A stretch of 64,000 bases of DNA from Ahrensia sp. (lineage in GTDB: Bacteria; Pseudomonadota; Alphaproteobacteria; Rhizobiales; Rhizobiaceae): positions 62,001 to 126,000 of the forward strand of contig JAPPOQ010000012.1 of NCBI GenBank assembly GCA_028817895.1, read 5' to 3'. Below, in pieces: positions 911 to 12,756 of the stretch (the stretch's first letter is position 1; every line of letters starts with the position of its first letter). Both the position numbers and the translations under genes were made by a program. The notes beneath the pieces were generated by a model. The model had not been told where the DNA came from and made no database searches. It saw only the letters and a program-made list of their open reading frames with translations.

Positions 911-3718
911 ATGCGAACGGGACCGTGTTTGACGAGCGTTTGGGACATCGATTTGGCCACAACCGACCCCTTTGAAGAAGCCAATCGGCCACTCGACAAA
1001 AAGCTGCTGCGCTATATCTGGCGCAACACAAGAGCCGAGCAGATCTGGATTTTGATGGTCGTGATCGCCTCGATGCCGACCTATTTTCTGGTGCTCGATC
1101 TGCCGGTGCGCATCATCAACGAGCCGATTCAAGGTGTCGGCTTTGAAAGCGCCGATGCGACGTTACAGTTCCTGGATCTGAGCATCTCTCTGCCGGAATT
1201 TCTTGGCGGTGCGACGTGGCAGATTTTCGAGGGCTTCGCGCTGGAAAGATGGCCCTATCTGCTGGCTTTATCCTGCTCGTTTCTGACTTTGATTACCATT
1301 AACGGGCTCTTTAAGTTCTACATCAACACCTATAAGGGGCGACTCGGCGAGCGCATGCTGCGACGCATGCGGTATCAGCTGGTTGACCGGGTGCTGCGCT
1401 TCCCAATCAACCATTTCCGTAGGGTCAAAGGGTCCGAAGTCGCTTCCATGGTGAAGGACGAGGTTGAACCGTTCGGCGAGTTCATCGGGGACGCGTTCGT
1501 TCAACCGGTTTATCTGGGCGGACAGGCCCTGGTCGCTTTCATCTTCATCATGCTTCAAAGTTTCTGGCTTGGCATGATTGCTGTGGGCGTCATCGCGATT
1601 CAGGTGACAGTCATTCCCTATTTGAGGCGGCGCATTCTGGAGCTTGGTCGCCAGAGGCAGATTACGGCAAGATTGCTGTCCGGTCGTATTGGCGAAATTG
1701 TCGACGGCATTGCAGCCGTGCATGTCAACGATACGTCAAACTATGAACGGGCTGAACTGACACATCGTCTCGGCAAGATTTTCTTCATTCGCTACGAGTT
1801 GTATCAGCGAAAATTCTTCATCAAGTTCCTGAACAACTTCCTGGCGCAGGTGACGCCCTTTCTCTTCTATGTGGTGGGCGGCTATTTCGCCATTCGCGGC
1901 ACTTTGAATGTCGGCCAGCTTCTCGGCGTCATCAATGCATACAAGGACCTGCCCGCCCCGATCAACGGACTGGTTCAGTGGGATCAAAAGCGCGTCGATA
2001 TCGAGGTCAAATACGCCCAGATCGTCGAGCAGTTCAATGTGAGCGGCACGATGGACGCGCGGATGCAGGCGCCCACAACCGACAAGATCGACCCTCTCAC
2101 CGGTACGATTGTCGTTTCCAATCTTGGCGTTGTGGATGACACTGCGACCGTGCTGCTCGAAGATGCCGATTTCAGCATGGAGGTCAGTGACATCGTCGCG
2201 GCCATCGGGCCGATCGGCTCGGGTGCCGGAACGCTGGCGAACACGATCGCCGGTCTGCAGGCTCCGACTTCCGGACGGTTGATGATCGCTGACCGCAAAA
2301 TGCAGGATCTTCCCGAGGCGATTCGTGGACGCCGTTTCGCCTTTGCGGGATCGGAATCCTATCTACCGCAATCAAGCCTCTTCGACGCCATCGTGTATGT
2401 GTCGAAGCACGTTCCGCTGGTTCCAGCCGATCCGGACAACCTGCCCGAACCGTTGCATCCGCGGGCTGCGGCCGAGGTGAAAGCCTCCGGCAATTCCACG
2501 CTCGATTATCAGGCCGACTGGGTGGACTATGAGGCCATGGGAATTTCCGGGCCCGACGAGCTTTACAGGAAAATTCACGAGGTTCTCGAAGTCGTCGAAA
2601 TGGACGACGTGGTCTACGCCCTCGCCATGCGACAGAAGCTTGATCCGACCACCTATCCGCAGCTGACGGATAAGCTCATCGACATGCGCAACGCAATGAA
2701 TGATCGCATATCGCAGAGCGAGCTGAACGATTTTGTGTCTGTGTGGGACTGGGATCGCTACAATGAGAACGCCTCCATCGCGGAGAATCTGCTTTTTGGA
2801 ACGCCGGTCGATGAAGACACGCTTCAGACCGACAGGCTGTCTCGCAACGAACACATTCGCGCTGTTTTGCGAGACGAGCAACTGGACCGCGCCATGTTCG
2901 ACATGGGCATGGAACTGGCAGAAACCGCGATTGAGCTGTTCGCCGATCTGTCACCGGACAATCCGTTCTTCGAACAGTTGAACTTCATGACGCCGGAACA
3001 GTTGGAAAGCTATCCGCCAATTCTGCAAAGAGCGCGCGAAAAGGGCTTCGACGGGGCGTCTGATGCCGACAAAGGCATGCTGATCGAATTGCCTTTCGGC
3101 TATATTGAAAAGCGCAACCGGCTGAAGTTGCTGGATGAAAAACTTGAGGAGCGCATTCTCAAGGCGCGACATCGCTTCCACGAAACACTGCCGGACGACA
3201 TGAAAGAAGCCATCAGCATCTATGACGTTGAAAGCTACAATCCGATCAATTCTCTTCAGGACAACATTCTATTCGGAAAGATCGCTTATGGAACGTCCAA
3301 CGCTTCTGAAAAGGTCAACGAACTGATCGGCGAGTTGATGGATGAACTTGGCATTCGTGACGACATCTTCCGCATCGGCCTGGAGTTTGACATCGGTACA
3401 GGCGGCAAGAGACTGTCTGAAAACCAGAGGCAGCGCATTGTTCTTGGGCGTGCACTGTTGAAAGGATGCGATCTACTTATCATCAATCGCGGCCTCAACA
3501 GTCTGGACGGTCGGGCCCAGGCAAAGCTTGTCAAGCGGGTCGTGGAGCGCGCACGGAACACGGAACACAGATTTGGCGTCTTGTGGGTTCTGGCGACGTC
3601 ACGGCTCGCCGAAGAATTCGATCAGGTCCTTGTGTTTGATCGTCAACGACTGGTTGCAAAGGGCACGCCACAGGACCTGGCCCAGTCTAGTGACACATAT
3701 AAATCGATGGTGGCATAA
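911..3718 (+). CDS. ABC-exporter-like membrane protein with degenerate (pseudo-) ATPase domain
   Basis: The 935-residue protein has an N-terminal ABC type-1 exporter membrane domain (about residues 30-370, several hydrophobic helices) and a C-terminal nucleotide-binding-like domain. Every catalytic motif is altered. The Walker A stretch at 433-441 reads GPIGSGAGT, with Ala439 in place of Lys. The signature is LSENQ (835-839) instead of LSGGQ. The Walker B region ends in Asn859-Arg860 instead of Asp-Glu, and the H-loop position reads ATSRL without His. The D-loop SLD (864-866) and a Q-loop-like Gln487 remain. About 300 extra residues lie between Walker A and signature, where the Q-loop/helical segment appears three times (near 487, 618-630, 777-789). 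The usual half-transporter length is near 600. It is first in the operon with cNMP-binding and cyclase genes. I infer a non-transporting sensor or scaffold. No clear ribosome site precedes ATG 911, and TTG 929 is an alternative start. Confidence 0.8.
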   Translation: MRTGPCLTSVWDIDLATTDPFEEANRPLDKKLLRYIWRNTRAEQIWILMVVIASMPTYFLVLDLPVRIINEPIQGVGFESADATLQFLDLSISLPEFLGGATWQIFEGFALERWPYLLALSCSFLTLITINGLFKFYINTYKGRLGERMLRRMRYQLVDRVLRFPINHFRRVKGSEVASMVKDEVEPFGEFIGDAFVQPVYLGGQALVAFIFIMLQSFWLGMIAVGVIAIQVTVIPYLRRRILELGRQRQITARLLSGRIGEIVDGIAAVHVNDTSNYERAELTHRLGKIFFIRYELYQRKFFIKFLNNFLAQVTPFLFYVVGGYFAIRGTLNVGQLLGVINAYKDLPAPINGLVQWDQKRVDIEVKYAQIVEQFNVSGTMDARMQAPTTDKIDPLTGTIVVSNLGVVDDTATVLLEDADFSMEVSDIVAAIGPIGSGAGTLANTIAGLQAPTSGRLMIADRKMQDLPEAIRGRRFAFAGSESYLPQSSLFDAIVYVSKHVPLVPADPDNLPEPLHPRAAAEVKASGNSTLDYQADWVDYEAMGISGPDELYRKIHEVLEVVEMDDVVYALAMRQKLDPTTYPQLTDKLIDMRNAMNDRISQSELNDFVSVWDWDRYNENASIAENLLFGTPVDEDTLQTDRLSRNEHIRAVLRDEQLDRAMFDMGMELAETAIELFADLSPDNPFFEQLNFMTPEQLESYPPILQRAREKGFDGASDADKGMLIELPFGYIEKRNRLKLLDEKLEERILKARHRFHETLPDDMKEAISIYDVESYNPINSLQDNILFGKIAYGTSNASEKVNELIGELMDELGIRDDIFRIGLEFDIGTGGKRLSENQRQRIVLGRALLKGCDLLIINRGLNSLDGRAQAKLVKRVVERARNTEHRFGVLWVLATSRLAEEFDQVLVFDRQRLVAKGTPQDLAQSSDTYKSMVA

Positions 3719-3745
3719 CACTATGAGGCGGCAGGAAGGTGCAGC

Positions 3746-4219
3746 ATGAGTAAACTGAAAGACGAGGTGGAACTGCTGCGTACGATTCCGGTCTTTTCCG
3801 AGTTGCCAGCCAATAAGTTGAAACTGCTCGCCTTTGCCTCCGATCACATGGACTACAAGGATGGCGAAGTCTTGTTTGAGCAGGGTGACGTTGCAGATTC
3901 AGCCTATGTCGTCATCAAGGGCGGCGCAGACGTTTTGGTCACGCCGGAGGGCGAGACACAATCCAACAAAGTTGCCGAACTCGGCCCCAATTCCTTCATC
4001 GGAGACATGGCCATTCTGGCCGACATCACCCGCACGGCAACCATCCGCGCCAATGCCCCACTTTCAACGCTGCGCATCAGAAAGGACCATCTCATCGACA
4101 TGATGCAGGACAGTCCAACTTTCACAATGGCAGTACTGCGAGAGTTGGTGCTGCGACTGAAGAAGACGACATCTGATCTTTCAGATGCACAGGCTGAAGT
4201 CGCGCGGCTGAAAGGGTGA
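3746..4219 (+). CDS. Stand-alone cyclic nucleotide-binding domain protein
   Basis: The 157-residue protein is almost entirely one Crp-type cNMP-binding domain (about residues 12-130) followed by a short heptad-like helix (131-156) that could form a coiled coil. The phosphate-binding cassette is recognisable at 84-98, FIGDMAILADITRTA, with the phosphate-contacting Arg96. Asp87 replaces the Glu that usually binds the ribose 2'-OH, so the affinity or ligand may differ from cAMP. There is no helix-turn-helix, so it is not a transcription factor. AGGAAGG just upstream gives a good ribosome site. It lies 27 bases after the pseudo-ABC gene and its stop overlaps the next gene by four bases. It most likely reads the cyclic nucleotide made by the two downstream cyclases and passes the signal to a partner, perhaps the pseudo-ABC protein. 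Confidence 0.85.
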   Translation: MSKLKDEVELLRTIPVFSELPANKLKLLAFASDHMDYKDGEVLFEQGDVADSAYVVIKGGADVLVTPEGETQSNKVAELGPNSFIGDMAILADITRTATIRANAPLSTLRIRKDHLIDMMQDSPTFTMAVLRELVLRLKKTTSDLSDAQAEVARLKG

Positions 4220-5085
4220 GCGATACAATGGCCGAGCCTTTCACCATAAAGATTTGGGGCGCGCGGGGTACTTTGTCCTCGCTCAGCAGGCGCACAGACA
4301 ATTTTGGTGGCAACACGGCTTGTGTTGAGGTGCGCTGTGGCCGCGACATACTAATTCTTGATGCCGGATCCGGGCTGCAATTGTTGGGGGACGATCTGAT
4401 GCGGCGTCTCAAACACGCCAGCCAGGACGATGCCAAATCACTGCTCAACTTGAATCTGTTCTTCAGCCACTGTCATTACGACCATATTTCCGGCTTCCCG
4501 TTCTTTGCGCCGTTTTTTCATCCGTCCGCGAAAGTTAACGTGTGGTCCGGCCATCTGGAAGGGCCCGACAAGACCCGCAACATGATTGCAGACTATATGC
4601 GTCCGCCCTTCTTCCCTGTTGGGCCCGAGGTGTTCGCTGCTGAGTTGTCACTACGGGACTTTGAACCTGAAGATGTCTTGCGGCCCATTGACGGGATCGA
4701 AATCTCAACTTTGTCGCTCAACCATCATGACGGCTGCGTCGGTTATCGCATCGACTTTGACGAACGCTCCCTCTGCTACATCACCGATACGACGCATATT
4801 GTGGGTGAGCCAGATTTGCGCATACCCGATTTCTGCCGCGACACCGATCTCATGATCTATGACGGCACCTATACGGATGCCGAATTTCCAACCTTTTGGA
4901 ACTTTGGTCATTCGACTTGGGAGGAAGGCGTTCGTCTGGCCAAGCTTGCCAACGCCAAGCGCTACATGATCTTTCACCATCGACCAAGCCGAGACGACAA
5001 GGCCCTCGCAGCCATTGAACGCGACTGCCGCAAGGAGTTTCGCCGCTCATGGGCCGCCCGCGAGGGGCAGGTCATCAAACTTTGA
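4216..5085 (+). CDS. Metallo-beta-lactamase-fold hydrolase, possible cyclic nucleotide phosphodiesterase
   Basis: The 289-residue protein opens with the GxRG...NFGGNTACVEV pattern common to PhnP/RNase Z-like MBL proteins. It carries the metal motif HCHYDH at residues 85-90, a later Asp in ITDTTH and a His in the HH pair near residue 255, so a two-metal site is complete. Related branches hydrolyse phosphodiesters, including cAMP (class II phosphodiesterases) and cyclic phosphates. Given the cyclase neighbours, turnover of the signal is the natural hypothesis, but it is inferred from context only. The GTG at 4216 overlaps the preceding stop (GTGA), which suggests translational coupling. An ATG four codons later (4228) is the alternative start. 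Confidence 0.75.
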   Translation: MSDTMAEPFTIKIWGARGTLSSLSRRTDNFGGNTACVEVRCGRDILILDAGSGLQLLGDDLMRRLKHASQDDAKSLLNLNLFFSHCHYDHISGFPFFAPFFHPSAKVNVWSGHLEGPDKTRNMIADYMRPPFFPVGPEVFAAELSLRDFEPEDVLRPIDGIEISTLSLNHHDGCVGYRIDFDERSLCYITDTTHIVGEPDLRIPDFCRDTDLMIYDGTYTDAEFPTFWNFGHSTWEEGVRLAKLANAKRYMIFHHRPSRDDKALAAIERDCRKEFRRSWAAREGQVIKL

Positions 5086-5150
5086 TGAGCAGTTGAACTT
5101 CGGCTTGGCCATAATCGCGAAAGTCTCAACCCGGCGTAACGGGAAGCACC

Positions 5151-6503
5151 ATGTCCGCCCTGTTTGACCGCCTTTTGAAAAGTTATGAGCAAGTCTGGCC
5201 TCGGCCTGGAAGACACCGTTTGCCCAAGCGCATCACGGACGCCATCAAGCGCAACGATACCGCGAGCGAAGTTCTGGTGAAAATCATCCAGTTTGCGGTG
5301 TTCGCCAGCTGGGGTCTTCTTTATCTCGCAGCACCACAACCAGACCCGGAGACCCAGTCACAGGTCCCCCTCGTCGTTTCAATCTATCTGGTTTTCACGC
5401 TCGTGCTGCTTTGGGCTGCCTTGCGCAAACGCACCGATCCCTGGCTCATCTATCTTTCGATCATCGTGGATATGGCCCTGCTGACCTACCTGATCTGGAG
5501 CTTCCACATTCAGTATGGCCAGCACGCATCCTTCTCACTCAAAAGTGTCGAGGTGCTCAACTATTTCGTACTCATCTCACTTCGAGCTCTGCGGTTCGAA
5601 GCCCGATATGTGATAGCCGCAGGCGTTGCGGCCATGGCCAGTTGGCTGATCCTGATCGTCATCGTTGTCGATGGAGACATCAACTACCCGCAGATAACGC
5701 GCTCCTATGTTGACTATCTGACCGGAAACTATGTCTTGATCGGCGCCGAATTGTCGAAGGTCATTTCAATGCTCATGGTGACGCTCATTCTGGCTGTCGC
5801 TGCAAGACGGGCGCACAGCTTTCTGGTATCGTCGGTTGCGGAAGGATCTGCAGCGTCAGACCTTTCGCGTTTCGTTGCAAATGATGCCGTGCAGCAGATC
5901 CTCGACTCCGAGGATATGATGGAAGCGGGCAGCGGCGTGCGACGCGAAGCCGCAATCCTCAACGTTGACATTCGCGGTTTCACGCGGTTGGCCGCCAGCG
6001 TTAAGCCGCAAGAGGCGATGACACTGCTGGCAGACTATCAGCACCGCATCGTGCCTCTGGTGCACGAACATGGCGGGGCCGTCGACAAGTTCATGGGAGA
6101 CGGCATTATGATCACCTTCGGCGCGGCGCGTGAGGAACCGGACTATGCAGCACGGACCCTGCGCTGCATGGAAGATATCCTGAAAACGGCCCGCAGCTGG
6201 AAAGGCCCCTCCTCCAAGCTCGCCATCAACATGGCAGCAGCTAGCGGACCTGTGATCTTCGGTGCTGTGGGAGATGGTGATCGGCTGGAACTCACCGTGA
6301 TCGGACCGGCCGTCAACCTTTCTGCGAAACTCGAGAAGCATAATAAGGTTCTGCAATCCAAAGCGTTGGTCGAGAAGCAACTATACGAGCTGGCCCTCCG
6401 GCAGGGTTACAAACCGACACGGCATCGCCGCTCACGGCACAAGACACTGGCGACCCGGCTCGACGACACATCGCACGAAATGAATGTGGTGGTACTGGCG
6501 TGA
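5151..6503 (+). CDS. Membrane-anchored class III adenylate/guanylate cyclase
   Basis: The 450-residue protein has about five or six hydrophobic helices between residues 40 and 220 and a class III cyclase homology domain from about 262. The two metal-binding aspartates are present (Asp273 in VDIRGFT, Asp317 in KFMGDG), as is the base-contacting Lys313. Thr382 at the second base-contact position suggests a class IIIb-like enzyme. Asn389 is present, but the transition-state Arg four residues later is Lys393 (NLSAK), a conservative change that could lower or alter activity. GGGAAG before ATG 5151 is a plausible ribosome site. The next cyclase gene starts inside its stop codon (GTGA at 6500). The membrane part resembles no sensor I can name. 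Confidence 0.85.
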   Translation: MSALFDRLLKSYEQVWPRPGRHRLPKRITDAIKRNDTASEVLVKIIQFAVFASWGLLYLAAPQPDPETQSQVPLVVSIYLVFTLVLLWAALRKRTDPWLIYLSIIVDMALLTYLIWSFHIQYGQHASFSLKSVEVLNYFVLISLRALRFEARYVIAAGVAAMASWLILIVIVVDGDINYPQITRSYVDYLTGNYVLIGAELSKVISMLMVTLILAVAARRAHSFLVSSVAEGSAASDLSRFVANDAVQQILDSEDMMEAGSGVRREAAILNVDIRGFTRLAASVKPQEAMTLLADYQHRIVPLVHEHGGAVDKFMGDGIMITFGAAREEPDYAARTLRCMEDILKTARSWKGPSSKLAINMAAASGPVIFGAVGDGDRLELTVIGPAVNLSAKLEKHNKVLQSKALVEKQLYELALRQGYKPTRHRRSRHKTLATRLDDTSHEMNVVVLA

Positions 6504-8230
6504 ACGGCATCGCAAAACTCTTTAACGACCAGCACCTTTCCGCCCTCCGGCTGTATTCTGGCCTTGTGCTGATGGTGTATGTCACGACCCATCTGATCAA
6601 CCATTCGATCGGCCTCATCACACTGGAGGCGATGCAGGCGGCTAATGATGTCGTCAGCCCGCTATGGCGCTTTCTTCCTGTTTCGATCCTGCTCTATGGC
6701 GCATTGATCGTCCATTTCATCGCTGCCTTCTGGAAACTTCTGAAGCGGCGTACAACTCGCATGTCCGCCGTCGAGGCTGTGCAGATCGCCCTTGGTTTTG
6801 CTGTGCCGCTCTTGCTGGCGACGCATGTTATGGGCACGCGCTATGCCAATGCCGTCTATGGTATCAACGACACCTATCTAGCCGTTCTGGTCTCCGCCTT
6901 CATTTTCTCGCCGGTGGTCGCAGTTCTGGACGCACTTGGCCTGTTGGCAGCCTGGGCGCATGGCTGCATCGGGATGCACCAATGGCTGAAACTGAAATCC
7001 TGGTACACCCGCACCGTTTATGAATGGTGCCTCAGCGGCGCGATTTTGCTGCCAACGCTGGCTTTGGGGAGTTTCTTGTTCAACGGACGAGCGATGATCC
7101 CCCTGGCCTCAGATGGTGAGTTTCTGGGTGCCTATTTCGAGTCTCTCGGCGTCACCGATGATGCCGTATTCGCGGCACTTGGTGAGCGAATTGACCAGGT
7201 GCGCTGGGGCTTTCTTGCCACCGTTTTTGCCGGAGTTGCGGGTCGCCTGATCTGGCAATTGAGCGGCAAACGATCATTGTCCGTCGAAGTGAGTTACCAA
7301 AACGGGCCCAAGATCAGGCAGAAGCCAGGTCCGACGCTTCTGGAAATGAGCAAGATGGCGGCCATCCCGCATGCCAGCGTCTGTGGCGGTCGCGGGCGTT
7401 GCTCGACCTGCCGTGTGCACCTGCTCGAAGGAGGCGATACCCTTGAGCCGCCATCGGATTCGGAACGACGTGTTCTGGAGCGCTTCAACGCTGCCGAAAG
7501 CGTGCGGCTGGCCTGTCAGATCAGACCCACCCATGATCTTTCGGTGCTGCGCCTGCTTCCGCCTGACGCCACCATGGAGCGTGCCAGCTCTTCCACTTGG
7601 GCAAGCGGCCAGGAGCGCGTCATCACCGTGATGTTTGCTGATCTTCGCAATTTCACCGGCACGACCGAGCATCGCTTGCCCTTTGACGTGGTCTATCTGG
7701 TTAACCAGTTCTCCCAAGCCATGGGGCAGGCCGTTGAGGCGCGCGGGGGCCGCATCGACAAGTTTTTGGGCGACGGGTTTATGGCACTGTTTGGCGTTGA
7801 GACGACGCCGGAAAAGGGTGCGCTGCAAGCCATCGAAGCCGCCGCAGCGATGCAGGAAGAGCTTGATGCGCTCAACAACACATTGACGGTTGAACTCGAC
7901 CAGCCCTTGCGCATGGGTGTGGGCATACATTGCGGTTCCGTTGTGCTGGGCGATATGGGCTATGGCGAAGCGCGAGGGCTTACTGCCATCGGTGATACCG
8001 TCAACACCGCGAGCCGGCTTGAATCGGCAACGAAAGACCATGGTTGCGCCATATGTGTATCGCAAAAGACAATTGAGATGGCTGGGCTGCGTCCGGATCG
8101 CGCTTCTTTGAAGACGGCGTCTGTGCGCGGCAAAACAGATACCGTGAGCATTGCGGCGATAGAACGGGCCACCGATTTGCTTCAATCAAATCGAAGCGAA
8201 GACGGCCCTCGCGAGGAGATGGCAAAATGA
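6500..8230 (+). CDS. Redox-sensing membrane adenylate cyclase: His-rich (heme?) anchor, 2Fe-2S domain, class III catalytic domain
   Basis: The 576-residue protein has three parts. Residues 15-255 form about six membrane helices resembling the cytochrome b anchor of succinate dehydrogenase, with membrane histidines His31/His35, His72, His109 and His154/His160 that could bind two b-type hemes. Residues about 262-345 form a ferredoxin-like domain with Cys295, Cys301, Cys304 and Cys339 for a 2Fe-2S cluster. Residues about 370-555 are a complete class III cyclase domain: metal Asp381 and Asp425, Lys421, Thr495, Asn502 and Arg506. The anchor resembles that of Sinorhizobium meliloti CyaC, described as a quinone-responsive, redox-regulated cyclase. 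It should convert the quinone/redox state into cAMP. GTG start at 6500 overlaps the previous stop and its own stop overlaps the next start (ATGA). Confidence 0.88.
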   Translation: MNGIAKLFNDQHLSALRLYSGLVLMVYVTTHLINHSIGLITLEAMQAANDVVSPLWRFLPVSILLYGALIVHFIAAFWKLLKRRTTRMSAVEAVQIALGFAVPLLLATHVMGTRYANAVYGINDTYLAVLVSAFIFSPVVAVLDALGLLAAWAHGCIGMHQWLKLKSWYTRTVYEWCLSGAILLPTLALGSFLFNGRAMIPLASDGEFLGAYFESLGVTDDAVFAALGERIDQVRWGFLATVFAGVAGRLIWQLSGKRSLSVEVSYQNGPKIRQKPGPTLLEMSKMAAIPHASVCGGRGRCSTCRVHLLEGGDTLEPPSDSERRVLERFNAAESVRLACQIRPTHDLSVLRLLPPDATMERASSSTWASGQERVITVMFADLRNFTGTTEHRLPFDVVYLVNQFSQAMGQAVEARGGRIDKFLGDGFMALFGVETTPEKGALQAIEAAAAMQEELDALNNTLTVELDQPLRMGVGIHCGSVVLGDMGYGEARGLTAIGDTVNTASRLESATKDHGCAICVSQKTIEMAGLRPDRASLKTASVRGKTDTVSIAAIERATDLLQSNRSEDGPREEMAK

Positions 8231-8940
8231 CACCATGGGCAACAACATCCCTGCTTGGCAGTTGTGCGGCCGCCATTATGGCGCTGGTATTCGTGACCGT
8301 AGAGGCTCAACATGCCCATGCAGGCTGCACCGACTATCCCGGGCCCGGCATTGACTGGTCGAAATGCCGAAAACGCAATGTGATCCTTAGCGATATCGAT
8401 CTGAGCGAGTCCAATCTGGAAAAGACCGATTTTATCGGTTCTGATCTGCGTAACACCAATCTGGCCGGCGCCAATATGGTGAAGGCACGCATTAACAGGG
8501 CCAATCTTTCGGGAGCCAATTTGCGCGGCGCAAATCTCAACCGCGCCGAAGGTACACGTCTGATCATGCGCCAGGCGAATGCGTCTGCGGCCGATCTTGA
8601 GAAGGCGGAAATGTTCCGCAGCGATCTTTCCGGCTCAGATCTTTCCAATGCCAATTTGAGCAAGACGGAACTGAGTCGCGCCAATCTGGCCGGCGCAAAT
8701 CTAAAAGGCGCAATGATGAGCTTTGCCAATCTGGCGCGCGTAACGTTCACCGATGCGGTGTTAGACCGCACAGACTTGGCCAACAGCTGGACGTACCGCG
8801 CCGACTTCGAAGGCGTCGATTTGTCAGCGGTTGCAAATCTTGAACAGCGGCAACTCGATCTTGCCTGCGGTGATGACCAAACGGTTTTGCCGGAAGGGTT
8901 CTCGCGCCCTGCGGCCTGGCCCTGTGCCGATGATGACTGA
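8227..8940 (+). CDS. Exported pentapeptide-repeat protein
   Basis: The 237-residue protein starts with a signal peptide (about residues 1-32) and then has roughly twenty A(D/N)LxX-type pentapeptides from about residue 52 to 200, for example the series SGANLRGANLNRAE. This folds as a right-handed quadrilateral beta helix. The ends of the mature protein carry Cys residues (CTDYPG, WSKC, LACG, WPC) that could form disulfides, in keeping with export. Pentapeptide proteins are usually binding or scaffold modules; no enzyme motif is visible. ATG 8227 overlaps the cyclase stop and the next gene starts inside its 3' end, so it belongs to the signalling operon. Its partner is unknown. Confidence 0.85.
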   Translation: MTPWATTSLLGSCAAAIMALVFVTVEAQHAHAGCTDYPGPGIDWSKCRKRNVILSDIDLSESNLEKTDFIGSDLRNTNLAGANMVKARINRANLSGANLRGANLNRAEGTRLIMRQANASAADLEKAEMFRSDLSGSDLSNANLSKTELSRANLAGANLKGAMMSFANLARVTFTDAVLDRTDLANSWTYRADFEGVDLSAVANLEQRQLDLACGDDQTVLPEGFSRPAAWPCADDD

Positions 8941-9523
8941 CGTTCCCAACGACCACCTTTCCATCGAAAAGCGCTCAGGACTGCCCGAGGAATGGCGGTT
9001 TTTGCTGCTGTCCTATCCCCGCTCGGATTGGCTGAGCCACGCCAGTCTTGGTGAGCATACGAAATTCTGGCTGCAGGTTCATCGCAGCTTCCGAATGATG
9101 GGAGCGCATTTGAACGAACGAACCGATGCCTATGAAAGCGGGATCGTCACAGCAGAGCAGTTTCGCCATACGATGGTGCGTCGGCTGCAGAACTTTCTGG
9201 GCTCCCTCGACCATCATCACCGCATCGAGGATCATGTCTTCTTCCCCAAGTTCATGGAGGCCGAGAAACGTCTGGTGGCAGGTATCGAACTGCTGGAAGC
9301 CGATCACACAGTGATCGACGCGCAGGTTCATGCCATGGTGGATGTCGCAAATGCGCTCTTGAGAAGCCCGGCTTCAGACAAGGACGCCCTGAAACGAAAT
9401 GGAGAGGACTTTGCCATTGCCAGCCGACGCATCGTGAAACTGCTGGACAGGCACCTGGATGATGAAGAAGAGATCGTCATTCCGTTGTTGCTTGATCGCG
9501 GTGAAGAGGAACTCATGACGTGA
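8930..9523 (+). CDS. Hemerythrin HHE domain protein
   Basis: The frame extends upstream, but ATG 8930 (or 8933) at the end of the pentapeptide gene gives about 197 residues and the expected overlap. The sequence shows the helical-bundle pattern of hemerythrin HHE proteins: an early His in LQVHRSF, the cluster [14 protein letters not shown], then [13 protein letters not shown], and near the end [14 protein letters not shown], together giving the His and Glu/Asp ligands of a di-iron site. Such domains bind O2 or NO or sense iron and redox state. It is the last gene of the redox/cNMP module and its stop overlaps the GTG of cmk, so the two are probably co-translated. Confidence 0.85.
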
Positions 9524-10173
9524 CTGCGCCTTTGGTGATTGCGATCGACGGCCCTGCGGCATCCGGCAAGGGCACACTCGCCCGCAGGCTTGCCGAACAC
9601 TTTGATCTTCCACATCTGGATACGGGCCTCACATATCGTGCGGTCGCAAAGGCTTTGCTCGACTCCGGTCAACCTCTGGATCGGGAAGCGTTGGCGGTAG
9701 ATGCCGCGCGTCGTCTTGACCTTGTCGGACTGGATCGTGATCAGCTCTCGCATCATGAAATCGGTGAAGCCGCCTCGAAGGTTGCTGTCATGAGCGCGGT
9801 GCGCAGAACGCTGGTTGATCAGCAACGTCTCTTTGCCAAAAACGGACGGGGCGCGGTTCTGGATGGCCGCGACATCGGAACCGTGGTCTGCCCCGATGCA
9901 ATGGCCAAGCTTTTCATCACCGCCGCACCCAATGAGCGTGCGCGACGGCGCTGGAACGAAATGCAGTTGAAGGGTGAGGTGATCGATTTCGAGGCCGTTT
10001 TGGCCGATATCAAACGCCGCGATAAGCGCGATATGGGACGGGCCGACTCTCCATTGAAGCCGGCACGCGATGCCCACTTGCTCGATACGTCCCAAATGGA
10101 TATAGAGGCAGCGTTTCGCGCGGCCATTTCGCTTGTCGAAAAGGCGCAAAGCGCGGCACATCCTGAAAGCTGA
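9520..10173 (+). CDS. cmk: Cytidylate kinase
   Basis: The 217-residue protein carries the P-loop [11 protein letters not shown] at its N-terminus, the CMP-binding segment [11 protein letters not shown], and the conserved DGRDIGTVV and RARRRWNE segments of cytidylate kinase. It phosphorylates CMP and dCMP to diphosphates in the cytoplasm. The start is GTG at 9520, overlapping the hemerythrin stop by four bases. In most relatives I know, cmk follows aroA. Here it is coupled instead to the signalling operon, which is unusual. rpsA follows after 212 bases, the usual alphaproteobacterial arrangement. Confidence 0.96.
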
Positions 10174-12201: not shown

Positions 12202-12756
12202 TCAGGAGACCGAAGCACGTCCCTTTTCGAGGGCGGCCTGCAAGCGGTTGGCCATGGTCAAGCGGTACCAGGGCAGAGCCGCCAGTTCGCGAAGCCAGTG
12301 ATAGAGCCTGCGATAGAAGCGGGTCGTCGCGATGTTGTGGTCGGGCGCGCTGCCTGCTACCCGGTAACCCAAATGGCGAAAGCACATGCGCGCGCGCGGA
12401 ATATGGTAGGCGTCGGTCACAACGATGACCTGCTCAATGCCTCTCTTTTCAAGCTCAATCGCACTAAAGGCAACATTCTCAAACGTGCTCGTTGATTGCG
12501 CTTCGAGAACCAGCACATCCCGGCTCACGCCTTCTTCAATGCAGATGTCGGCCATGACATGGGCCTCTTCCGGCGCATGTTTTCCCAACCCTCCGGACAG
12601 CACCACCAACCGCGCTGCGCCCTCCTTGTAAAGACGCGCAGCATGAATCGTTCGCCGCCTCAAAGTGGGGCTTGCCACACCTCCTGACCAGACCGCCGCA
12701 CCAAGCACGACAAGTGCGACGTCAGCACCGCCTGTATCCAGCCGTCCCGTTCTCAA
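12202..12756 (-). CDS. YdcF/SanA/ElyC-like DUF218 protein
   Basis: The 184-residue protein shows the DUF218 pattern: VALVVLGAAVW near the N-terminus, RRRTIHAARLYKEG, LVVLSGG, EAQSTSTFENVAFS, and VVTDAYHIPRARMCF. The family is linked to envelope integrity and cell-wall or antigen metabolism in E. coli (SanA, ElyC); its chemistry is not settled. The hydrophobic start is short and I see no clear signal peptide. ATG 12756 overlaps the stop of the upstream gene (ATGA), so it is the last member of the four-gene minus-strand operon. Confidence 0.8.
   Translation of the reverse strand: MRTGRLDTGGADVALVVLGAAVWSGGVASPTLRRRTIHAARLYKEGAARLVVLSGGLGKHAPEEAHVMADICIEEGVSRDVLVLEAQSTSTFENVAFSAIELEKRGIEQVIVVTDAYHIPRARMCFRHLGYRVAGSAPDHNIATTRFYRRLYHWLRELAALPWYRLTMANRLQAALEKGRASVS

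Follow-up and report, generated by a model that had tools for sequence, protein, structure and literature searches.

Which cellular process is served by an operon that carries two cyclases, a cyclic-nucleotide receptor and a membrane ABC-like protein stripped of its ATPase residues? Such an operon occupies positions 911-9523 of a 64,000-nucleotide stretch of Ahrensia sp. DNA (contig JAPPOQ010000012.1; hereafter the window). Its seven genes, all on the + strand and checked for open reading frames (ORFs) and order, encode the ABC-like protein (ABCpsi), a cyclic nucleoside monophosphate (cNMP) binding protein, an MBL-fold hydrolase, two class III cyclases (AC1 and AC2), a pentapeptide-repeat protein (PPR) and a hemerythrin HHE domain protein (HHE). 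The original prediction took these seven genes as the system. The near-constant unit around ABCpsi was found to be ABCpsi, the cNMP protein, glycosyltransferases (GTs) and an Opp binding protein, with the MBL hydrolase and CyaC-type cyclase (AC2) common and the other genes optional. The co-occurrence of GT and Opp genes with ABCpsi is the main point; in the window genome they lie on another contig, outside the view of the original prediction. We give even odds to the reading in which alphaproteobacteria share a conserved envelope-glycan system and the window operon supplies its cyclic-nucleotide control half, with ABCpsi and the cNMP protein as a cNMP-gated, non-ATPase membrane element.

Co-occurrence and linkage of ABCpsi with glycosyltransferase and Opp genes

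ABCpsi was scored in 61 relatives at ≥447.8 bits (next best match 88.9), a threshold being set because all 61 show some ABC match; 33 genomes were positive. Counts are given as both / ABCpsi only / partner only / neither, at thresholds of our choosing that left weaker GT4 matches unlisted. The binding protein SBP5 (E 1e-80) gave 32/1/0/28, with G005 the one ABCpsi-positive genome missing it. GT28 (E 1e-8 or better) gave 32/1/1/27 (missing in G005, 77% complete; extra in G045, 84% complete). AC2 (E 1e-40) gave 30/3/1/27 (absent from G038, G040 and G049; extra in G045), MBL (E 1e-25) 28/5/1/27 (absent from G007, G033, G038, G050 and G054; extra in G048) and DUF3095 25/8/2/26. With one genome per other genus (n = 46) the tables were SBP5 19/0/0/27 (p 2.4e-13), GT28 19/0/1/26, AC2 16/3/1/26, MBL 15/4/1/26 and DUF3095 16/3/2/25.

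Across 398 genomes drawn from the phylum, the window's own included, GT4a (E 1e-100 or better) and full-length ABCpsi gave 27/0/0/371 (p 1.7e-42). Five partial ABCpsi matches were left out of this 27/27 count. The match lay at positions 527-894, with a weak match at ∼360-474, in G088, G202, G210 and G329, and was confined to the transmembrane part in G183. Adding the five changed the table to 27/5/0/366 (p 3.4e-37). The distribution of ABCpsi, GT and SBP5 genes is close to all-or-none, and a functional link between the ABCpsi-cNMP pair and the GT/Opp genes is very probable.

Loci were collected by a scan of genome_contigs, from which the best 80 of 499 confirmed loci were taken (largely Hyphomicrobiales, one Plasticicumulans). 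They were mapped by tblastn, each gene labelled by its best match of at least 45 bits, and 118 loci were mapped in total. The 118 are not independent, since some public records duplicate contigs of sampled genomes and many come from Rhizobium. The recurring order was OppDF-SBP5-OppB-OppC-GT28-GT4a-GT28-ABCpsi-cNMP, surrounded by MBL, cyclases, GT4b, a deacetylase-like gene (its PF01522 match, E 0.0034, falls short of the cut-off), UDP-glucose dehydrogenase and DUF3095. Among the best 80 of 499 loci, ABCpsi was linked to cNMP in 80, OppDF in 65, GT4a in 57, GT28 in 56, SBP5 in 52, MBL in 35, AC2 in 24, a third cyclase-like family (AC3) in 17, DUF3095 in 17, AC1 in 11, PPR in 3 and HHE in 2. The OppDF count is unspecific because that family is large, and the label also catches unrelated ATPases. 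On these counts, which answer the genome-neighbourhood test set by the original prediction, the seven-gene set was rejected as a natural unit; PPR and HHE were linked solely in loci from the window's own genus. GT genes were found in 57 of the 69 loci of at least 20 kb among these 80, SBP5/OppB/OppC in 50, any cyclase in 34 and MBL in 31. Over all 118 loci, GT and SBP5/OppB/OppC genes were both present in 58, GT only in 22 and Opp only in 3. Two loci (L060, L106) held GTs, Opp, ABCpsi, cNMP, AC2, AC1, MBL and UDP-glucose dehydrogenase together, and the S. meliloti 2011 locus (L135) lies on pSymB. Every NCBIfam match of the GT proteins fell short of its cut-off; the highest was EpsE-like, for GT4a.

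The window genome (G000; 3.5 Mb, 46 contigs) holds the operon on contig C46. GT4b-GT28-GT4a-GT28 lie at C13:65649-70405 and SBP5 at C13:35128-36882; because these genes are on C13 and the operon on C46, the operon was read as a separated signalling half. A UDP-glucose-dehydrogenase gene adjoins the C13 GT genes (27% identity to the probe, with the Pfam domain). In five of six sister genomes (L153-L156, L160) the Opp genes lie ∼5 kb or less from the GTs; in the sixth (L161) they lie beyond the stretch examined. A PAS-GGDEF-EAL protein for cyclic di-GMP (c-di-GMP) turnover (L150:16871-19270, window genome) is encoded divergently to the UDP-glucose dehydrogenase and GT genes.

The ABCpsi-cNMP pair

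The loss of ATPase residues claimed for the ABC-like protein was borne out. The window protein has neither the Walker A Lys nor the Walker B Asp/Glu, and no His stands at or beside its H-loop column; the stretches concerned are those we take to be Walker A, Walker B, signature and H-loop. The family was assessed by profile alignment of distinct members covering at least 700 model positions (n = 136). Eight of them retain the Walker A Lys, 13 the Walker B Asp and 8 the Walker B Glu, against 123 each for the D-loop Asp and the signature Gln. His stood at the H-loop column in 3 of the 136 and one column earlier in 3 more among 20 members listed, so placement of this column is uncertain by one. 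As judged from this alignment, ATPase degeneracy is general in the family, not universal. Walker A Lys-Ser and Walker B Asp-Glu were kept, with an altered signature motif, in L186, L187 and L188 (G419, G415 and G305; one genus), which are useful for timing the loss of ATPase activity. Walker A Lys and Walker B Glu were also kept in L173, L120, L174 and L177. Lys-bearing members fell in three places in a midpoint-rooted tree of the first 380 model positions, in which several deep nodes were weakly supported. This fits an ancestral ATPase that would have been lost in the larger ABCpsi lineage.

An AlphaFold model of ABCpsi (30 sequences) had a mean pLDDT of 84.1 and a pTM of 0.76. Foldseek matched it to the type IV exporters TmrAB, MsbA, TM287/288, PCAT1 and HlyB with E down to 5e-16; the domain arrangement of the model is untrustworthy because half-transporter root-mean-square deviations (rmsd) were large (14-19 Å). 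The best NCBIfam match was the NHLM exporter, at 131 bits against a cut-off of 853. Most of the invariant positions sit in the transmembrane part. The nucleotide-binding domain (NBD) holds an insert of roughly 260-300 residues, and profile comparison suggests that it carries three versions of a unit around ENxxFG (Table 1). Copies 1 and 2, compared with each other by hhalign, matched over 22 columns only, outside the ENxxFG unit.

Related proteins were also noted. A Sulfitobacter plasmid encodes a homologue of the transmembrane part only, without NBD (L139:8788-10098), adjoined by copper-protein and cytochrome c genes. Partial matches resembling it were also listed on other Rhodobacterales plasmids. 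Frames of 863-1016 residues in L189, L190 and L191 (G088, G210 and G202, genomes without GT4a at the threshold used) matched chiefly the C-terminal pseudo-NBD, and are possibly a sister family of ABCpsi.

Of the 118 mapped loci, 116 have the cNMP gene directly after ABCpsi and in the same orientation; the exceptions are L045 (copy split across contigs) and L139. In unfused pairs (n = 113) the tblastn matches were 18-329 nt apart. Both proteins were encoded in one open frame in seven loci (L050, L137 Ruegeria, L138 Azospirillum, L182, L184, L185 and L186), three within the 118 and four others. The cNMP domain is C-terminal in the fusions; the Azospirillum protein matched PF00664, PF00005 (below cut-off) and PF00027. 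The fusions fall in one tree group of nine (support 0.905, with a weak node inside) that includes L187 and L188, whose stretches stop before a cNMP domain could show. This adjacency and the fusions lend strong support to the original proposal that the cNMP receptor has the ABC protein as its partner, and ABCpsi-cNMP is likely to be one receptor-effector.

The phosphate-binding cassette of the cNMP protein, with its Arg, is present, and the protein is predicted to bind cAMP or cGMP. cAMP is favoured because CyaC makes cAMP; cGMP is also possible. Pfam gave no DNA-binding domain for the window protein, which makes a transcriptional role unlikely. TIGR03896 was matched weakly (38 bits, cut-off 161).

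Operon layout, cyclases and accessory genes

Features of the window are collected in Table 1.

Table 1. Genes and sequence features of the operon region, with window coordinates
Feature	Coordinates	Strand	Description and basis
ABCpsi	911..3718	+	935 aa; exporter-type transmembrane domain and ATPase-dead NBD with insert; Pfam, Foldseek, 136 family members
Degenerate Walker A	2207..2233	+	GPIGSGAGT, Lys lost; sequence and family alignment
Q-loop-to-helical unit, first copy	2336..2416	+	GSESYLPQSSLFDAIVYVSKH; hhalign vs third copy, probability 86.6, E 4.5e-6
Q-loop-to-helical unit, second copy	2735..2803	+	YNENASIAENLLFGT; within insert; hhalign vs third copy, probability 97.2, E 3.6e-11
Q-loop-to-helical unit, third copy	3212..3283	+	YNPINSLQDNILFGK; ahead of signature region; hhalign
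Altered ABC signature	3413..3427	+	LSENQ (for LSGGQ); family alignment
Degenerate Walker B	3473..3490	+	LLIINR, without Asp/Glu; sequence and family alignment
cNMP-binding protein	3746..4219	+	157 aa; PF00027 E 4.7e-18
cNMP phosphate-binding cassette	3998..4051	+	Gly86, Arg96, Ala98 invariant in alignment of 19
MBL-fold hydrolase	4216..5085	+	candidate atypical class-II cNMP phosphodiesterase; PF12706
MBL metal-binding motif	4468..4485	+	HCHYDH; H85, H87, D89, H90 invariant in 15
AC1	5151..6503	+	membrane class III cyclase; PF00211; Lys393 at transition-state Arg site
AC2	6500..8230	+	CyaC-type cyclase; membrane His-rich anchor, 2Fe-2S, class III cyclase; PF00111 and PF00211
PPR	8227..8940	+	pentapeptide-repeat protein; PF00805
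Hemerythrin HHE domain protein	8933..9523 (start 8930 or 8933)	+	PF01814
cmk	9520..10173	+	CMP kinase; overlaps hemerythrin stop

The seven co-directed genes have four overlapping junctions, as originally predicted (cNMP/MBL, AC1/AC2, AC2/PPR and PPR/HHE), and Pfam found every domain that had been named, in gene order PF00664 with partial PF00005, PF00027, PF12706, PF00211, PF00111 with PF00211, PF00805 and PF01814. The hemerythrin gene starts at one of two ATG codons (Table 1), not at the mechanical ORF start 8831. A fifth overlap joins hemerythrin to cmk, which is followed by rpsA. This junction looks specific to the window genome because a cmk match was found in 0 of the 118 mapped loci; cmk is probably not part of the system. 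A promoter scan gave no excess (3 matches, 4.6 in shuffles). Terminator-like sites were in slight excess (16, against 10.1 in shuffles) and were not used for any reading. A DUF218 domain protein on the minus strand (12202-12756) is unrelated to the operon.

Eleven sister-genus loci were long enough to judge; two more (G007, G010) break off within cNMP and were not counted. ABCpsi, cNMP, MBL, AC1 and PPR stand in the window's order in all eleven. AC2 holds the window's position in ten and in L029 lies upstream on the opposite strand. Hemerythrin is present in four; one locus without it, L051, ends 297 bases past PPR. Content and order across sister loci are conserved far beyond chance.

AC2 has membrane histidines H31, H35, H72, H109 and H154 invariant in 12 sequences, listed also in the window and 33 relatives (some duplicates). 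Its 2Fe-2S domain (PF00111, E 3.9e-7) has C295, C301, C304 and C339 invariant in the same number. The class III catalytic set D381, D425, N502 and R506, whose roles we assume, is complete and invariant in 12. AC2 would be expected, from these residues, to bind haem and to show quinone-dependent activity. The redox inputs that had been proposed are real at residue level, with the invariant membrane His and four Cys expected of S. meliloti CyaC, which has two haem B, a 2Fe-2S cluster and a quinone response and makes cAMP (PMC10463352). By architecture and residues, AC2 resembles that protein (SMc01818) in combining a membrane His-rich anchor, a 2Fe-2S domain and a class III cyclase in one chain; it differs in context, as the excerpts of the paper describe CyaC with the regulators CycR and Clr and not with an ABC-like protein (PMC10463352). 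CyaC was rejected as dedicated to the ABCpsi system, since AC2 was found in 28 phylum genomes without full-length ABCpsi; it was present in 20 of the 27 with it.

In AC1 the two metal Asp and the Asn are intact, and Lys stands in place of the transition-state Arg. In all 22 family rows covering the motif, the window included, this site holds Lys or Asn (Asn in L027 and L044, sister genomes), so AC1 may have little activity, or serve as a partner subunit.

The MBL protein is a candidate cNMP phosphodiesterase; RNase-Z-like or other activity may also apply. PF12706 is the family given for atypical class-II cNMP phosphodiesterases (PMC9293780). The MBL protein shares with these enzymes (Rv1339) the Pfam family, relatedness to RNase Z and an HxHxDH-type metal motif, and differs in scoring 22.2 bits on the NCBIfam cyclic-nucleotide phosphodiesterase model NF041851 (cut-off 400). 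Profile search gave RNase Z and YhfI (6kns, E 2.3e-8). The combination of cyclic-nucleotide synthesis and reception originally proposed stands; the degradation proposed with it stands only as a possible degrading enzyme.

PPR is probably exported, from a signal-like N-terminus read by eye, and among the 118 loci neighbours ABCpsi in the window's genus alone. The hemerythrin matched PF01814 at 51.1 bits (gathering score 25.3), and hemerythrin genes near ABCpsi were seen only in records of that genus.

DUF3095 (PF11294) was seen at L056:8747-9883 and in 12 other copies; the window genome copy is at G000:C26:202-1317 (L152). Its predicted fold (pLDDT 88.7) resembles human soluble adenylyl cyclase (Foldseek E 1.8e-4, TM 0.42, rmsd 9.5), and ADxxxST-like and FGGDGA-like motifs are kept. 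The model suggests a possible single-chain nucleotide cyclase that has so far gone unrecognised.

Proposed mechanism and alternatives

The simplest mechanism using the whole unit has a cNMP controlling glycan assembly at a membrane step. In this scheme cAMP would be produced close to the membrane by AC2, with quinone/redox input, and by AC1, and would be removed by the MBL hydrolase. The small cNMP protein would bind the nucleotide and sit on ABCpsi as a detachable regulatory domain, the counterpart of the C-terminal fusion of other lineages. ABCpsi, an exporter-fold protein without ATPase and presumably a homodimer, would be a cNMP-switched membrane element and no pump. It would permit or organise assembly or passage of a glycan made by GT28a-GT4a-GT28b-GT4b, and the Opp-type importer would serve the same pathway. 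For cNMP gating of a glycan step we put the chances a little short of even. More tentative, and somewhat doubtful, is the full account, in which an ABC exporter has turned into a cyclic-nucleotide-gated, ATP-independent gate or scaffold, giving a new class of glycan machine under second-messenger control. It would have its own phosphodiesterase and cyclases (redox-sensing CyaC, AC1, DUF3095 and further genes of cyclase type) and would drive an envelope glycan not described so far and conserved in Hyphomicrobiales as well as in other alphaproteobacteria.

Several results weigh against the glycan-control scheme. Seven ABCpsi members retain Walker A Lys with Walker B Glu, so ATP use is possible in part of the family. 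Neither GT nor Opp genes were found in the stretch examined in 35 of the 118 loci, including those of the window's genus. In many Rhizobium ABCpsi-cNMP-GT-Opp loci, neither a cyclase nor MBL lies within 10 kb. AC2 occurs in 28 of the 371 phylum genomes without full-length ABCpsi, 4 of the 28 matching only its C-terminal half. AC1, without the transition-state Arg, may be a weak cyclase, and catalytic regular expressions for AC3 gave mostly empty or off-target matches. The p-values overstate independence because the genomes are related, and co-occurrence proves neither contact nor mechanism. There is no known glycan, and literature searches gave no phenotype. Searches of open-licence papers also returned no description of such an ABCpsi-cNMP-glycan system; the single passage matched in an S. 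meliloti paper dealt with capsular polysaccharide genes.

The prominence of the importer genes raises the possibility that ABCpsi-cNMP regulates an Opp-type importer, for oligopeptide or glycopeptide uptake, with the GTs using or modifying the import. SBP5 is the tightest ABCpsi partner in the relatives (32 of 33 positive genomes, 0 of 28 negative), and OppB/OppC lie immediately upstream of the GTs in many loci. Three loci (L116, L117, L123) have Opp but no GT genes in the stretch examined, and in L042 and L138 Opp is nearer than the GTs. This importer reading is nevertheless considered unlikely: of the 58 loci holding both kinds of gene, 56 place a GT closer to ABCpsi than SBP5, OppB or OppC, 22 loci have GTs only, and we know of no exporter-fold protein that contacts an Opp importer. 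ABCpsi could also be a real flippase or transporter driven by another ATPase or a gradient and simply turned on by cNMP. The kept exporter fold, its mostly transmembrane invariant positions and the members with near-complete Walker motifs agree with this, and no Wzx- or Wza-like protein was found among 20 annotated neighbour-family representatives. The loss of Lys, Glu and His in most members argues the other way, as does the lack of an exporter-type partner NBD among annotated neighbour families, in which no search was aimed at one; such a transporter is judged distinctly unlikely.

A self-contained unit for redox-to-cAMP signalling, with an output unrelated to glycan, is an improbable reading of the operon; the co-occurrence would then stem from shared ancestry and plasmid-borne inheritance. 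In the window's genus the operon is indeed unlinked from GT and Opp genes and carries accessory redox genes, and ABCpsi often sits on plasmids (matches in 325 plasmid records). Against this stand the all-or-none distribution of SBP5 over the 46 other genera and of GT4a over the phylum, the physical linkage of ABCpsi to GTs in 80 of the 118 loci, and a case of loss, the 0.9 Mb genome G014, which is without ABCpsi, GT28, SBP5, AC2 and MBL. Control of a glycan step by ABCpsi-cNMP was kept as the preferred reading.

Known systems resemble the proposed one in part. ABCpsi shares the transmembrane fold and NBD scaffold of type IV ABC exporters (MsbA, TmrAB, PCAT1) and differs from them in lacking ATPase residues, in its NBD insert of repeated helical units and in its near-constant cNMP partner. 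TIGR03896 cNMP-domain proteins are linked to bacteriocin-type export and likewise tie a cNMP-binding domain to an exporter; they differ in gene context, and the TIGR03896 match of the cNMP protein and the NHLM exporter match of ABCpsi are both below cut-off. Cellulose, alginate and Pel are made by c-di-GMP/PilZ-controlled polysaccharide synthases. There too a membrane machine for glycan synthesis is under the direct control of a second messenger. The likeness is one of proposed logic; messenger, receptor domain and membrane element are all different from those of the ABCpsi system.

For the 28 adenylate cyclases of S. meliloti, the individual outputs are described as unclear (PMC10463352). A dedicated cNMP receptor lacking a DNA-binding domain, tied to a membrane protein and a fixed GT set, offers a concrete and testable target for part of this cyclase signalling. 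If the reading is true, an ABC exporter has lost its ATPase, kept its fold and gained a regulatory domain, and has done so in genera with well-studied symbionts among them. The suggestion is of an undescribed route by which bacteria may control a surface glycan through cyclic AMP.

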